Source: an uncultured Clostridia bacterium
GTDB lineage: Bacteria; Bacillota; Clostridia; Christensenellales; Borkfalkiaceae
Direction of reading: 5' to 3'
DNA: 64,000 bases
Assembly: GCA_947632195.1 (NCBI GenBank)
Contig: CANROE010000003.1
Location: forward strand, 1-64,000
Positions 5,730-58,774 of the stretch are shown piece by piece. The stretch's first letter is position 1, and every line of letters starts with the position of its first letter. The position numbers and the translations under genes are program-made. The notes under the pieces were generated by a model, which ran no database searches, had not been told where the DNA came from, and saw only the letters and a list, made by a program, of their open reading frames with translations.

Positions 5730-6619
5730 TTTTCTTTCTCCTCTTTGATACCGAGCGCAAGCGCATACAGACAGCTTGCGAAGTTCGCGTTGAATTGGAT
5801 CTGCTTTTCCGCCTCGCCCACAAGCCCGAGCGCGGCGATGATCGCGCCCAAAGAATAGCCCTCGACGAGCCCGCCGGAATGCACATATTCCGTCTTGCCC
5901 GCCGCCTGCATGAGCATGTCGCGAAGCAGGCTTTTGAGCGCCGCAAAAAATTCCCTCTTGTCCTTCCTCTCCCCCAATTCGCGGCAGAAGAGCTCGGAGC
6001 CCTCCAACGATAAAAACCGCCGCGCCAGAGAAAAATTTTCCCCGCCGCCGAAGAGGAGATTTTCCGCCACCGAAAAGATCCCGCCGCACGCGCCCGCCGC
6101 ACGCGAGACATCCTCCCCGGGATATTTGCGCGCAAGCGCCCGCTGAACATCTTCCTCCGCAAAGGGAGGAACGACGTATTTCACCGTGCGCGAAAGTACG
6201 GTGGGCAGAACGGAGAACTCCGCCGACGCACCCAGCAGGAAATGCACGCCCTCGGGCGGCTCTTCCAGAATTTTCAACAGCTTGTTCTGCACGAGCGCGG
6301 GCGCCGTGTGAAAGCCGTCGAGCACGAAAAGTTTTTTCCCCGCCTCCACGGGCGCGAGCAAACTTTCCTCCGAGATCGCGTCGCAATCCTCTGCATTGAG
6401 CTTGCCGCCCTCTTCGGGAAAGATGAGACAGTCCGAAAAGGTCTCGCCGTCGATGAGGGCCGCTGCGCGGGAGCCGTCCTCCGCGCCGAAGAAACGCTTG
6501 GCGCACTCTTTTAAGAGCATGCGAAGGTACTTTTCGTCGGGGAAGAGCACGAGAGCCGCCCCGAACTCTCCCCGTCCCATTGCCCGATATGCGGTTGTGG
6601 AGCGGAGCAACTCTTTCAT
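5717..6619 (-). CDS. holB: DNA polymerase III subunit delta'
   Basis: FVLDGFHTAPALVQNKLLKILEEPPEGVHFLLGA; next to ricT as in the yaa cluster; start ATG at 6619 overlaps the upstream stop. Confidence 0.85.
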   Translation of the reverse strand: MKELLRSTTAYRAMGRGEFGAALVLFPDEKYLRMLLKECAKRFFGAEDGSRAAALIDGETFSDCLIFPEEGGKLNAEDCDAISEESLLAPVEAGKKLFVLDGFHTAPALVQNKLLKILEEPPEGVHFLLGASAEFSVLPTVLSRTVKYVVPPFAEEDVQRALARKYPGEDVSRAAGACGGIFSVAENLLFGGGENFSLARRFLSLEGSELFCRELGERKDKREFFAALKSLLRDMLMQAAGKTEYVHSGGLVEGYSLGAIIAALGLVGEAEKQIQFNANFASCLYALALGIKEEKEKWQR

Positions 6620-8603: not shown

Positions 8604-8702
8604 AGTGTTTTTTGATTAAGGTGAGATTTCCGCTTTCCCACACATTGAGGGATGGGTGCCGACGAAGGAGGCAGAAGGAGTTTTTGCGCATAGAAATAAA
8701 AC

Positions 8703-8753
8703 ACCCCCTCAGTCACTTCGTGACAGCTCCCCCTCTAAGGGGCAGCCAAGGGG
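8703..8753. repeat. Family B palindromic repeat
   Basis: ccccTCAGTCACttcGTGACAGCTCCCCCTCtaaGGGGCAGCCAagggg; two hairpins inside an outer CCCCT/AGGGG stem. Confidence 0.75.
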
Positions 8754-8763
8754 AGCCACCCCC

Positions 8764-12964: not shown

Positions 12965-13296
12965 TATTCACGAAAAATCTTTTGCTACGCAAAATCTTTT
13001 TCCGTGAGGAAAGGAGCGTGAGCGCCTTAATTTGTTCTTCCTCTCGTTCGCCTTGTCTTACACTAAGCCGTAAGAATGCGGCAAATTGTGGGCGCTGCCG
13101 CAGGGAAACCCTGCTCCGCGCAGTGGATTATATTCACGAAAAATCTTTTGCTACGCAAAATCTTTTTCCGTGAGGAAAGGAGCGTGAGCGCCTTAATTTG
13201 TTCTTCCTCTCGTTCGCCTTGTCTTACACTAAGCCGTAAGAATGCGGCAAATTGTGGGCGCTGCCGCAGGGAAACCCTGCTCCGCGCAGTGGATTA
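12965..13296. repeat. Exact tandem duplication, 2 x 166 bp (family F)
   Basis: Units 12965-13130 and 13131-13296 read identically; a third diverged unit starts at 13297. Confidence 0.95.
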
Positions 13297-13460
13297 TATT
13301 CACGAAAAATCTTTTGCTCCGCAAAATCTTTTTCCGTGAAGAAACAGGCGTGGACGGTTTAATTTAGTTGTCCTCACGTTCGTTTCATCGGACAAGAAGT
13401 TGCAAGTATGCAACAAATGCTGTCGCCCACGGCGGAAATGAATTCCGCCTAAGGCAACGA
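13297..13460. repeat. Diverged third family F unit
   Basis: Shares the first ~50 bp with units 1/2; its hairpins GTTGCA-AGTA-TGCAAC and GGCGGAA-ATGAA-TTCCGCC occupy the equivalent positions. Confidence 0.8.
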
Positions 13461-13470
13461 TTCTCAATAA

Positions 13471-13676
13471 TGTCATGTCGAGCAACCGAGGAACGAGGTG
13501 TCGAGACATCTCTACCTCGTCGCCACACGCCCGCTTTATACGCTTTCCTTGCGAAAGCTCCGTTTGCGTGCGGTGGCTGCTCTTCCCGAAAAATCTTGCT
13601 CCGCAATCTTTTTCGGGAGCCCTAATATTGTGAGATTTCTCCACGCGGTCGCTCCGCTCCCTTGGTCGAAATGACA
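13471..13676 (+). repeat. Composite repeat: A-type terminal inverted repeats flanking a G core
   Basis: tgtcatgtcga...cgaaatgaca ends; core shared in inverse orientation with 28470-28659. Confidence 0.8.
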
Positions 13677-45095: not shown

Positions 45096-47651
45096 TTATT
45101 CTTCGCTCTCGTCCGTCTCCTCGACGGGCACGTCCGCCGCCGTCTCTTCTGGGACTTCGACTTCCGCTTCGTCGTCGCGGTCGGTGATGGCGACCGTCGC
45201 GACCGTGCCGCCGCGCAGGCTCATGAGCCGCACGCCGCGCGTGTTCCGCCCGATCCGCGAGATCGCGTCGCCGTGCATACGGATGACGATCCCCTGCGAG
45301 GACACCATCATCACGTCGAGGTCGTCCCGCACGAGTTTCATGTTGACGAGAAGTCCCGTCTTTTCGTTGAATACGCCCGCCTTCACGCCCTTGCCCGCAC
45401 GGGTCTGCATGCGGTAGTCGGCAGGGTCGGTGCGTTTGCCGTAGCCGTTTTCGGAGACGGTGAGGATATCGAACCCTTCCTTCAAAACGAGCATATCCAC
45501 GACCGCGTCGTCCTTGGAAAGGTTGATGGCGCGCACGCCCATGGTGTCTCTGCCCATCGGGCGGACGTCCTCCTCGGAGAAACGGATGCACTTGCCCGAA
45601 CGGGACGCCACGATGATCTCGTCCGTGCCGCTTGCGAACTGCACCGAGATGAGCTCGTCGTCCTCGTTGATCTTGATCGCGATCTTGCCGCTTCGCATAA
45701 TGCGGTCGAATTCGCTCGTCGCCGTCTTTTTGATGAGGCCGTTTTTCGTCGCCATCACAAGATAGCCCGTGCCGTTTTCGTAGACGGGAAGGATCGCGGC
45801 GATCTTTTCGCCCGCGTTGAGCTGGACGATGTTGACGATCGCCCGCCCGCGCGCCTGCTTGTTCGCCTCGGGAATCTCGTACCCTTTAATAGAATACACC
45901 TTGCCGAGGTTAGAGAAGAGCAGAATGGGGATATGGGTGGAACAGACGAACATCTGCTCCACAAAGTCGTCCTCTTTGGGCTTGTGCCCCGTGACGCCCA
46001 CGCCGCCCCTGTTCTGCGCGCGGTATTCGGCGACGGGGAAACGCTTGATATAGCCGCCGTGGGTCATGGAGATGACGACGTCCTCCTCGTCGATGAGGTC
46101 CTCGTCGTCGATCTCGCCGTAGTCGACGGAAACTTCCGTCCTCCTCTCGGAGGGGTATTTTGCCTTGATCGTTTCGAGGTCGTCGCGGATGATCTTCATC
46201 ACCCGCCACTCGTTGGCGAGAATGTCTTTGAGGTCCTCGATGGCCGCACGAAGGGAGGCGAGCTCCTCTCTGAGCTTTTCCACTTCGAGCGCGGTGAGCC
46301 GTTGGAGACGCATTTCGAGAATGGCGTTCGCCTGCTTTTCGCTGAGCTCGAACGCTGCGGTGAGCTTTTCCGTCGCGTCGTTTTTATCGCGCGATTCCTT
46401 GATGATACGGATGACTTCGTCGATGTTGGCAAGCGCGATGACGAGCCCCTCCACGATGTGGGCGCGCTCCTCCGTCTTTTGAAGGTCGTATTTCGTCCTG
46501 CGGCGGATGACCTCTTTCTGGTGTTCGAGATAATAGGTGAGAATTTCGCGCAGGTTCAGAACTTTGGGCTCGGTGCCGTTTTCGACGAGCGCAAGCAGAA
46601 TGATGCCGTCCGACGTCTGCAAGTTGGTGTGCTTGTAGAGGGTGTTGAGAACGACCTGCGCGTTGGCGTCCTTCTTGCACTCGATGACGATACGAAGGCC
46701 CTCTCTGCCGCTCTCGTCGCGGATATCCGAAATGCCCTCAATGCGCTTATCCTTCACCATGTCGGCGATCTGCACGATGAGCTGGGCTTTATTCACCTGA
46801 TATGGAATTTCCGTGACGATGATACGGGAGCGGACGTTCGCGCCCGTGCCGTGTTCCTCGATCTCGCACTTGGAGCGGATGATGATATTGCCTTGACCCG
46901 TTCTGTAAGCCTTGCGAATACCCCCTCTGCCCATGATGACGCCGCCCGTCGGGAAATCGGGCGCGGGGATGTACTGCATGAGCTCCTCGACCGAAATTTC
47001 GGGGTTGTCGATCATGGCGATCGTGCCGTCGATGACCTCGGCAAGGTTGTGCGGGGGGATGTTCGTCGCCATGCCGACTGCGATCCCGTCCGACCCGTTG
47101 ACGAGCAGGTTGGGAAAACGGGAGGTGAGCACGGCGGGCTCCATTTCGATGCCGTCGAAGTTGGGAAAGAAGTCCACCGTCTCCTTGTCGAGATCGCGGA
47201 GCATTTCGGCGGCGAGCTTGGTGAGTCTCGCCTCGGTATAACGCATGGCGGCGGGCGGGTCTCCGTCCACCGAGCCGAAGTTGCCGTGACCGTCCACGAG
47301 CGGGAAGTTGATAGTGAAGTCCTGCGCAAGGCGGACGAGGGCGTCGTACACCGACGAATCGCCGTGCGGGTGGAATTTACCCATGACGTCGCCGACGATA
47401 CGCGCGCACTTGCGGTACGCCTTGTCGTTATACAGCCCCATCTCGTGCATTGCATAGAGAATGCGGCGGTGGACGGGTTTTAAGCCGTCGCGCACGTCGG
47501 GAATGGCGCGGGACTTGTTGACCGCCATCGCATAGGCGATGAAGGAACGTTTGAGCTCGTCGTTTACCTCTACGTCGAGGATCTTTGTCATTTCGAGCGT
47601 CTTTTTGAACTCTTCGGTAAGTTCGGGACTTGTTTCACGTTTATTAGCCAT
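45096..47651 (-). CDS. gyrA: DNA gyrase subunit A
   Basis: [66 protein letters not shown]. Confidence 0.98.
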
Positions 47652-47751
47652 AGATCAATTCCTTAATTGTTGTATGTCGAAAGTTTTTTTACCCCAACCG
47701 TCATGGTTTCGCCATGCCACCCTTCCCCAACGTGTTGGGGTAGGGTCATAT

Positions 47752-47847
47752 TGTCATTTCGAGTGGAGCGTAGCGGAATCGAGAAATCTCAACATTATTA
47801 TAATGCAGTAGAGATTTCTCCACGCGCTTCGCTTGGTCGAAATGACA
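47752..47847. repeat. Head-to-head pair of family A repeats
   Basis: tgtcatttcga...gagaaatctc-aacattattataatgcagta-gagatttctc...tcgaaatgaca. Confidence 0.85.
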
Positions 47848-47873
47848 GTTTGGAAAGGGCGTTTTGTTTCTCT

Positions 47874-47931
47874 TGGCTGCCCCTTTGAGGGGGAGCTGTC
47901 GAGGCGCCAGCCGAGACTGAGGGGGTGTTTA
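47874..47931 (-). repeat. Family B repeat abutting the DUF559 stop codon
   Basis: Minus strand TAAACACCCCCTCAGTCTCGGCTGGCGCCTCGACAGCTCCCCCTCAAAGGGGCAGCC. Confidence 0.8.
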
Positions 47932-48282
47932 TTCTAAATTTAAGTAATACAGTATAGTATTTTTTACTTTCTCGAAATCTTTGGAGAGCTCGTAATTCGA
48001 GAACCGAACTACGGTGATTCCGTTCTTCCGAAAAAATTCCGTCCGCTCGTGATCGTAACGTTCCTGCTTTTCCTCGAAATGCTGCGAGCCGTCCAATTCA
48101 AGAACAAGTTTCTTTTCGGGGCAATAGAAATCTGCGATATAACGGCCGATCACCTTTTGCCTGACAAATTTACAGGGTAAATATTTGAGAAAGGTGTACC
48201 ACAGTTTTCTCTCTTCCTTGGTCATTGCTTTGCGCAAGGCTTTCGCATTTTTTATGAGTTCGGGATTGTATAACTCATTCAT
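47929..48282 (-). CDS. DUF559 endonuclease domain protein (Vsr-like PD-(D/E)XK)
   Basis: MNELYNPELIKNAKALRKAMTKEERKLWYTFLKYLPCKFVRQKVIGRYIADFYCPEKKLVLELDGSQHFEEKQERYDHERTEFFRKNGITVVRFSNYEL. Confidence 0.93.
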   Translation of the reverse strand: MNELYNPELIKNAKALRKAMTKEERKLWYTFLKYLPCKFVRQKVIGRYIADFYCPEKKLVLELDGSQHFEEKQERYDHERTEFFRKNGITVVRFSNYELSKDFEKVKNTILYYLNLE

Positions 48283-48301
48283 GACGACACCTTTTATGAC
48301 A

Positions 48302-48357
48302 CCCCTTCCGTCGCTCACTTCGTTCGCGCCACCCACCCCTCAATGGGTGGGCAAGGG
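48302..48357. repeat. Family D repeat upstream of the DUF559 gene
   Basis: ccccttccgtcgctcacttcgttcgcgccacccacccctcaatgggtgggcaaggg. Confidence 0.75.
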
Positions 48358-48386
48358 TTCCGTCTTATTGCGCCGCTTATACGCGT

Positions 48387-50300
48387 TTAGATATCCAAAT
48401 CGGTTACAAGTGTGGCGTTTTCTTCAATGAACTTGCGCCTCAGCGCCGGACTCTCGCCCATGAGAATGTTGAACATCTTGTCCGCCTCTACCGCGTCCTC
48501 CATGGAAACTTTGATGAGGGTGCGGGTGGCGGGGTTCATCGTCGTGTCCCACAGCTGCTCGGTGCTCATCTCGCCGAGACCCTTGTAGCGCTGGTATTCC
48601 ACCTTGTTGTTGTTCGCCGCGTCGAAGAGCACCTTTTCTTCCTCGGAATAGAGATATACATCTTCCTTGCCCTTGACGCTCGCCTTGTAAAGAGGCGGCT
48701 TTGCCGAATAGACGTGCCCGTGCTCGATGAGCGGGCGCATGTAACGGAACAAAAAGGTGAGCAGCAGAATGCGGATATGCGCGCCGTCGACATCGGCATC
48801 GGTCATGGAGATGATACGGTCGTAGCGCAGTTTGCTCTCGTCGAAGTCGTCCAAAATGCCGCAGCCGAACGCCGTGATCATCGCCTTGATCTCCGCGTTT
48901 TCGAGGGCGCGGTTGAGCCGCACTTTTTCGACGTTCAGAATTTTGCCGCGAAGAGGCAGAATTGCTTGAAATCTTCTGTCTCTGCCCTGTTTTGCGGTGC
49001 CGCCTGCGGAGTCGCCCTCGACGATGTAAATTTCACACAGCTCGGGACGTTTATCCGAGCAGTCGGCAAGTTTCCCGGGGAGGGTGGTGCTTTCGAGCAC
49101 GCCTTTCCGCCGCGTGAGCTCGCGGGCGTTTCTCGCCGCGTCGCGCGCCTTCTGCGCCGTGATACAGCGCAGGACGAGTTCCCGTGCCACGGAGGGGTGT
49201 TCTTCGATGTAGGTACCGAATTCGTCCGCTACGGCCTTGTTGACAAAGGGACGGATAAAGGAGTTGTTGAGTTTATCTTTGGTCTGAGACTCGAACTGCG
49301 CGTCTTCGAGCTTGACGGAGACGACGGCGGTAATGCCCTCGCGCACGTCCTCGCCCGTGAGACGGTCGCTCTCTTTGAGCAGGTTGAGTTTCCTGCCCGC
49401 GTCGTTGATGACCTTTGTAAGCGCCAATTTCAAGCCCTCAACGTGCGTTCCGCCGTCGATGGTGTTGACGTTGTTCGCATAGGAATAGATGACTTCGTTA
49501 TAGCTCTCGTTGTATTGGAGAGCGACTTCGCACACCGTGGTGCCGTCCTGCGCCTCGAAATAGAGGGGCTGTTCAAACAACACTTCGCTGCCCTGGTTGA
49601 GTTCCTCCACGAGTTCGCGGATCCCGCCCTCGTAGCAGAAACTGTCCCGCCGCTCCTTTTCGCCGCGAAGATCGGCAAGGGTGATCGTGAGCCCCTTGTT
49701 GAGGAAGGCGAGCTCTTTTAAGCGGGTTTTGAGCGTTTCGTACTTGAACGTGATCGTCTCGAAAATTTCCGCGTCGGGGAAGAAAGTGACCTTCGTGCCC
49801 GTCTTTTGGGTGTCGCCGATGATTTGCAGGGGACGCTGGGGCACGCCTCGGTTGTAGACTTGTTTATAGACATGGCCGTTCTGGCAGACTTCCGCCTCCA
49901 ACCATTCGGAGAGCGCGTTGACCGCCTTCACGCCCACGCCGTGAAGACCCGAAGAAACTTTATACCCCGAGTCGCCGCCAAACTTTCCGCCCGCGTTGAC
50001 TTTGGTAAAGACGACCTCGACGGTGGAAATACCCTCTTTGGGGTGAATTTCGGTGGGAATGCCCCGCCCGTTGTCCTCCACGGTGCAGCTGCCGTCCGCG
50101 TTGATGGTGACGTCCACGCGGTCACAATAGCCCGCCAAGGCCTCGTCGATGGAGTTATCCACGACCTCGCTGACGAGGTGGTGGAGCCCTTTTTCGTCTG
50201 TGGAACTGATGTACATGCCGGGACGCTTACGGATGTGCTCCAAGCCATCCAATACCTGAATTTGTTCGGCGCCGTATGCGCCCTCTACCTTTTCCGCCAT
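48387..50300 (-). CDS. gyrB: DNA gyrase subunit B
   Basis: EHIRKRPGMYISSTDEKGLHHLVSEVVDNSIDEALAGYCD; YIVEGDSAGGTAKQGRDRRFQAILPLRGKILNVEK. Confidence 0.98.
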   Translation of the reverse strand: MAEKVEGAYGAEQIQVLDGLEHIRKRPGMYISSTDEKGLHHLVSEVVDNSIDEALAGYCDRVDVTINADGSCTVEDNGRGIPTEIHPKEGISTVEVVFTKVNAGGKFGGDSGYKVSSGLHGVGVKAVNALSEWLEAEVCQNGHVYKQVYNRGVPQRPLQIIGDTQKTGTKVTFFPDAEIFETITFKYETLKTRLKELAFLNKGLTITLADLRGEKERRDSFCYEGGIRELVEELNQGSEVLFEQPLYFEAQDGTTVCEVALQYNESYNEVIYSYANNVNTIDGGTHVEGLKLALTKVINDAGRKLNLLKESDRLTGEDVREGITAVVSVKLEDAQFESQTKDKLNNSFIRPFVNKAVADEFGTYIEEHPSVARELVLRCITAQKARDAARNARELTRRKGVLESTTLPGKLADCSDKRPELCEIYIVEGDSAGGTAKQGRDRRFQAILPLRGKILNVEKVRLNRALENAEIKAMITAFGCGILDDFDESKLRYDRIISMTDADVDGAHIRILLLTFLFRYMRPLIEHGHVYSAKPPLYKASVKGKEDVYLYSEEEKVLFDAANNNKVEYQRYKGLGEMSTEQLWDTTMNPATRTLIKVSMEDAVEADKMFNILMGESPALRRKFIEENATLVTDLDI

Positions 50301-54580: not shown

Positions 54581-54624
54581 TATTTTCAAAGTGAGATTTC
54601 TCGACTTCGTGCTTCGCGCTCCGC

Positions 54625-54686
54625 TACTTCGCCTGCGGCTCGTGCCGCGCTTAGAGAATCAGAACTGCGCGCGGGGCGAAATGACA
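54625..54686 (+). repeat. 62-bp repeat (copy 2 of 3)
   Basis: tacttcgcctgcggctcgtgccgcgcttagagaatcagaactgcgcgcggggcgaaatgaca, identical to 54-115. Confidence 0.95.
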
Positions 54687-54749
54687 ATTAGAGCGATTTG
54701 CGCATAGCACAAGGAAAAGAATTGTGCGAAACTAAAATCACTGCGCGTT

Positions 54750-54867: not shown

Positions 54868-54885
54868 TTTATTTTCGACCGACAC

Positions 54886-54937
54886 CCCTTCCGTCTCCTT
54901 CGGAGACACCCACCCCTCCAAGGGGTGGGCAAGGGGG
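54886..54937. repeat. Family D repeat
   Basis: CCCCTT-cc-GTCTCCttcGGAGAC-ac-CCACCCCTccaAGGGGTGG-gc-AAGGGG. Confidence 0.85.
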
Positions 54938-58485: not shown

Positions 58486-58589
58486 GTGTTGCTCCTATTT
58501 GGTGTTTGCGTTTGGTTTTAAGCGTACTTGGACGTAGTAAGATTCCCTCGGGAAATTGCCATGTCGGACTGCATTATTGCTCATGCGGC

Positions 58590-58651
58590 TATTTCGCCTG
58601 CGGCTCGTGCCGCGCTTAGAGAATCAGAACTGCGCGCGGGGCGGAATGACA
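58590..58651 (+). repeat. 62-bp repeat (copy 3 of 3, two apparent substitutions)
   Basis: tatttcgcctgcggctcgtgccgcgcttagagaatcagaactgcgcgcggggcggaatgaca. Confidence 0.93.
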
Positions 58652-58658
58652 CTTTTCT

Positions 58659-58774
58659 GTCATTTCGACCGAAACGAGCAACGCGAGCGGAGTGGAGAAA
58701 TCTTACATTATTATAAATTATAATGTGGATGAGATTTCTCGGCACGCCTCGTCCCTCGGCGGCTCGAAATGACA
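58659..58774. repeat. Head-to-head pair of family A repeats
   Basis: tgtcatttcgaccg...gagaaatctt-acattattataaattataatgtg-gatgagatttctc...tcgaaatgaca. Confidence 0.85.

Follow-up and report, generated by a model that had tools for sequence, protein, structure and literature searches.

The window analysed here is a stretch of 64,000 nt from an uncultured bacterium whose closest named relatives are Clostridia MAGs from the rabbit gut. A small open reading frame (ORF) of the DUF559 family lies between two gyrase genes, and all three are read from the minus strand in the order gyrB, DUF559, gyrA (Table 1). The initial annotation had proposed exactly such a co-oriented DUF559 ORF, and the match to PF04480 (107.6 bits against a cut-off of 20.6) confirms it. 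It had also judged the ORF to be richer in AT than its neighbours, as is borne out by GC fractions of 0.40 for the ORF and 0.57-0.59 for gyrB and gyrA. This is the only DUF559 gene in the 1.78-Mb source genome, which comprises 48 contigs.

Table 1. Genes and repeat features in the 64,000-nt window
Feature	Position	Strand	Basis
Gene-free D-spacer-B unit (candidate miniature derivative)	8637..8757	+	
gyrA	45096-47651	-	
Two-hairpin unit, D-like, tail GACGGTTGGGG, downstream of DUF559	47699..47747	-	
Family A, TGTC-tagged inverted pair, long hairpin, 3' of DUF559	47751..47855	.	
Palindromic unit B, downstream of DUF559	47872..47929	+	
DUF559 (YcjD-type, Vsr/EDxHD-fold) nuclease gene, 117 aa	47929..48282	-	PF04480 E=4e-31, residues, predicted fold
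Palindromic unit D, upstream of DUF559 (CTTGCCCACCCATTGAGGGGTGGG ... GACGGAAGGGGTGTC)	48298..48357	-	
gyrB	48387-50300	-	
Further type-1 tail (GACGGAAGGGGTG)	54883..54895	-	

A gap of 15 nt separates unit D from the ATG of the DUF559 gene. Unit B shares 1 nt with its stop codon, which places the stop at the start of the B element just as first described. What did not survive is the treatment of D as a family apart from B. In the reading direction D has the layout CTTGCCCACCC..TTGAGGGG.. hairpin ..GACGGAAGGGGTGT; B, once reverse-complemented, resembles it and follows the same plan, CTTGGCTGCCCC..TTGAGGGG.. hairpin ..GACTGAGGGGGTGT. The DUF559 gene thus stands between units of opposite orientation, whose ends read GGGGTGT and ACACCCC. 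The type-1 tail of these units, GACKGARGGGGTG, occurs 48 times in the 1.78-Mb genome and a reversed-pattern control 0 times, so the repeat exceeds what chance would provide.

Family A is probably separate from the B/D units. Its hairpin is strong as a single strand (folding z about -6.45); the window copies of B and D fold weakly (z -2.2 and -1.2, respectively), making a single-stranded hairpin, proposed in the initial annotation as the substrate that the protein recognises or nicks, a weak candidate for the form in which these two units are recognised. TGTC-tagged copies of family A are also present at window positions 13666, 28470, 31175 and 58658-58764, and they resemble CGTC-type REPs. Other repeats in the window include a 166-nt unit in tandem (12965-13462; two copies identical, one 64%) and a dispersed 67-nt repeat (GCTACTTCGCCTGCGGCTCGTGCCGCGCTTAGAG...GGGGCGAAATGACA) with copies of 94-96% identity at 52-118, 54623-54689 and 58588-58654.

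The residues E24, D51, E62, D64, Q67, H68 and R80 of the DUF559 protein are invariant in 41 homologs, and its AlphaFold model has a pLDDT of 89. A Foldseek search with this model gave a strong match to NGO0050 (3hrl) and a match to the catalytic domain of I-Bth0305I (3r3p; E 2.7e-4, TM 0.75-0.78 by target). The match to Vsr (1vsr) is weaker (E 0.054, probability 0.99), and AbaSI is among the weaker matches as well. Homing-endonuclease profiles of PHROG also match the protein, and the fold predicted for the catalytic region is that of the EDxHD homing endonuclease family. In the framed ORF, DUF559 was the only domain that Pfam found; no DDE, HUH, serine or tyrosine transposase domain was recognised. 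A role in a defence system was considered and rejected, as PADLOC produced only weak matches to parts of larger proteins (DpdF, E 1e-6; mREase_II, E 3e-5). Across the phylum, a PF04480 survey returned mainly divergent or long multidomain DUF559 proteins, and many matches fall in long open frames of about 1100-1900 aa.

A stand-alone repeat copy near position 8695, noted from the start, proved to be a complete but gene-free D-spacer-B unit. Gene-free D-B units recur in the genus, where they far outnumber gene-bearing units and have a spacer of 17-19 nt in almost all cases. The last ten bases of the spacer resemble the final codons of type-1 DUF559 genes (P 1e-6 versus other ORF ends), a match that is inflated because type-1 DUF559 genes are homologous to each other. 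On the simplest reading, the gene-free units would be internally deleted or minimal forms of the gene-bearing unit.

The initial annotation had asked whether DUF559 genes in related genomes are likewise flanked by repeats, and a strong association with flanking inverted palindromes was found. The loci read were 80 named loci, further relatives from the genus and 24 loci from a plasmid collection. Each upstream flank was locally aligned with the reverse-complemented downstream flank, a score of at least 28 was taken as the threshold, and other genes of the same loci (n=600) served as controls. Inverted repeats were found in the gene's own flanks at 60 of 154 DUF559 loci and at 14 of the 600 control genes (P 4e-33), and the two flanks of a DUF559 gene match each other better than do cross-paired flanks of different DUF559 genes (P 6e-21). 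GC-rich hairpins on both sides are likewise more frequent beside DUF559 genes than beside controls, both in Clostridia and Negativicutes (37% versus 4%, P 1e-23) and at 14 loci from distant phyla (21% versus 0%, P 0.04). About 60% of DUF559 loci fall below this strict threshold, so that the link, though strong, does not hold at every locus.

Framing repeats occur in several phyla, and their sequences differ by lineage. Complete plasmid records of cultured species display the same repeat-DUF559-repeat anatomy. A palindrome pattern derived from the DUF559 flanks of four Deinococcus plasmids turns up on those plasmids only beside DUF559, and on pSymB of S. meliloti the DUF559 gene lies between two of 14 repeat copies. 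Some DUF559 units reside inside catabolic or metabolic clusters (L210, L214 and L292 on Deinococcus plasmids; L216, L294, L297), whose surrounding genes include hpa genes, paaD-paaZ, and those for carboxylase and transhydrogenase subunits.

Within the genus, the pairing of paralogs with repeat families was examined in 36 congeneric genomes carrying 71 DUF559 loci. The flanks of paralogs from one genome are no more alike than background, whereas DUF559 genes from different genomes that are at least 70% identical have flanks in common, in part because of shared descent at the gyrB-gyrA site. One genome (G056) contains five DUF559 paralogs with five different flanks, most of which belong to multi-copy families. 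Distant copies of these flanks in a 794-kb sample number 8/19, 33/32, 19/21, 0/19 and 4/0 (upstream/downstream). Thus, three of the five paralogs reach 8 or more distant copies on each side; among control ORFs, 9 of 587 reach 3 or more on each side, and one of these nine is itself a DUF559 gene.

Repeat number also tracks the presence of the gene. The median count of type-1 repeats is 23.5 in DUF559-positive congeners and 0 in negative ones (P 1e-5). When type-1 DUF559 genes are assigned by a strict list, the 12 genomes that carry them have a median of 36 type-1 repeats and a minimum of 12, compared with medians of 15 for genomes with only other DUF559 types (P 0.03) and 0 for genomes with none (P 1.5e-6). 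At the genome level, type-1 repeats are only weakly specific for type-1 DUF559. Each positive genome was also compared with its nearest negative relative, and the excess of repeats in 12 of 16 pairs (p=0.057) is suggestive, with shared ancestry accounting for part of the pattern. The initial annotation had also asked whether the repeats are absent from genomes that lack DUF559. They are much rarer in negative congeners, but there are several repeat-rich genomes with no detectable DUF559, among them G047 (56 copies), G062 (74) and G038 (21). In G047, which is 94% complete, no DUF559 gene was detected even at E=1. Such exceptions call for an explanation by gene loss, gaps in the assembly or a further mobiliser, and the excess of DUF559 matches within 600 bp of contig ends (17 of 72 versus 6.2 expected) means that some absences may be assembly gaps.

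These exceptions bear on the strongest competing explanation, in which the palindromes are spread by other machinery and DUF559 is a parasite or passenger that finds a safe haven in repeat units, into which it may home. The numerical dominance of gene-free units, the repeat-rich genomes without DUF559 (G047, G062) and the low copy number of the gene would all be expected of a passenger. The residence of paralogs from one genome in different repeat families argues the other way, as does the restriction of the palindrome pattern to DUF559 neighbourhoods on the four Deinococcus plasmids. A RAYT/Y1 transposase was rejected as the mobiliser in this genus: Y1 transposases (PF01797) are absent from the source genome (G000), and their presence in the genus is not associated with repeat number (p=0.48). 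We consider the passenger explanation unlikely, while giving it more weight than the other competitors.

It had been suggested that gyrB-gyrA junctions be searched for empty sites among relatives, and both occupied and empty states were found. The gap is short and free of repeats in four genomes (G038, G024, G002 and G065), holds a single D in G047, D-B without a gene in G128, and D and B enclosing a family-A pair in G006. Ten genomes have D-DUF559-B or a close variant. At the 8.6-kb locus, the orthologous intergenic region is repeat-free in G122, G071, G072 and G040. In G072, a duplicate gyrB 3' end of 52 bp, with synonymous differences, is present just upstream of D (L031, around 5770-5935), which suggests that this unit may have arrived together with a donor flank. 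Neither a cut site nor a transposition event was found, and no target-site duplication was recognised at empty sites that are too diverged to fix the junctions.

An occupied site of another kind is found in the cyanobacterium Pseudanabaena galeata, where a repeat-DUF559-repeat block lies in frame within the BREX gene pglX, just before the methyltransferase motif (L300). The outer ends of this block (CCCTCACCCCCAGCCCCTCTCCC / GGGAGAGGGGCTGGGGGTGAGGG) and its inner repeats are inverted repeats without mismatch, 23 and 27 bp long, and the pglX homologs of Aulosira and Azospirillum are without the DUF559 insert. The same pglX also carries repeat-only in-frame inserts of the PSSPQPPSPRTGEGG type. 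On cyanobacterial plasmids (L300, L209, L219, L299), DUF559 units are situated within methyltransferase or BREX-like genes (pglX, DUF1156) or next to them.

In-frame placement within pglX is difficult to reconcile with a second alternative, in which DUF559 performs Vsr-type host repair of mismatches at methylated cytosines and the hairpins serve as ordinary terminators or insulators for a gene that is transferred horizontally. In its favour, Caulobacter VsrA is a DUF559 protein with a functional link to a cytosine methyltransferase and DNA damage (PMC12907096), which suggests that members of the family can act on DNA in vivo; many of the hairpins also adjoin stop codons. Against it stand the inverted units on both sides of the gene, including upstream of the start, and the multi-copy families tied to DUF559 type, and no known RNA family in Rfam matches the repeats. 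This alternative appears improbable. Least credible of all is an artefact arising from the statistics of repeat-rich genomes and from misassembled MAGs. Repeats do break assemblies and DUF559 matches are enriched at contig ends, but the control genes were drawn from the same loci and complete plasmid records of cultured species have the same anatomy, so that complete genomes largely refute it.

We conclude that the DUF559 gene and its repeats very probably constitute one element. That the nuclease drives this element is a less secure proposition, which we nevertheless rate somewhat above its negation. With similarly modest confidence, we favour a minimal mobile element resembling a homing endonuclease, composed of DUF559 and bracketing inverted palindromes and accompanied by miniature derivatives. 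The Vsr/EDxHD-fold nuclease would cut repeat or target sites, or DNA close to them, and repair of the break from a unit-bearing template would copy the unit into new sites. Copies that include the gene would be autonomous, and those without it would be miniature and non-autonomous. Spread of this homing-endonuclease-like kind could yield a REPIN-like population of repeats. This break-repair route is the likeliest but unproven form of the process; the occupied and empty sites and the duplicated gyrB tail in G072 are only consistent with homing-type copying. DUF559 is mostly present in low copy number, unlike an active insertion sequence.

Short palindromes rich in GC are strewn through many bacterial genomes, and where they come from is unexplained. 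DUF559 might represent a pan-bacterial class of minimal elements that mobilise their own gene and miniature repeats, thereby explaining many of the GC-rich palindrome families that have no enzyme, a generalisation we advance tentatively and at slightly less than even confidence. DUF559 is very common and largely uncharacterised, and a link to repeat families would give a function to both. Such a link would also suggest a route of repeat spread that does not involve a transposase, and would open repeat expansion to direct tests in hosts that can be cultured, Deinococcus and Sinorhizobium among them.

The DUF559 gene and its repeats look like a compact and apparently undescribed type of mobile DNA. 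Our literature search found no description of the pairing of DUF559 with palindromes; it did not extend to subscription literature, where a prior description is possible. Several known systems share some of its features. Like insertion sequences and MITEs, the units have inverted terminal repeats and come in autonomous and miniature copies, but a transposase of the DDE, HUH, serine or tyrosine kind is lacking, and no target-site duplication was recognised at the diverged empty sites. CGTC-tagged REPs, for which no dedicated transposase is known (PMC3733652), are likewise abundant palindromes without a dedicated enzyme, and the TGTC end of family A in the window is similar to their tag, whereas units B and D have no CGTC tag. 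Homing endonucleases of the EDxHD/Vsr type, such as I-Bth0305I, provide a counterpart for the catalytic-domain fold, the PHROG profiles, the occupied and empty sites, and the apparent co-transfer of flanking DNA. They differ in that DUF559 is without an intron, intein or extra DNA-binding domain and is accompanied by multi-copy palindromic derivatives.

The REP/RAYT systems (TnpA-REP, REPtrons, BIME/REPIN) offer a close parallel in organisation: a gene present once or in low copy number stands between inverted palindromes, dimeric units of fixed spacing occur in numbers without the gene, and there are enzyme paralogs that each have their own repeat family (PMC2817692, PMC8266576). The initial annotation had envisaged a REP/RAYT-like system built around another nuclease. 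This idea stands as far as the flank association and the rarity of repeats without DUF559 are concerned, and it is weakened by the DUF559-negative exceptions. The enzyme here is a PD-(D/E)XK nuclease rather than a Y1 HUH transposase, the B and D palindromes carry no GTAG tag, and their copies in the window fold weakly as single strands. Thus, the DUF559 system works like REP/RAYT and yet, having neither a Y1 enzyme nor a GTAG tag, lies outside it.
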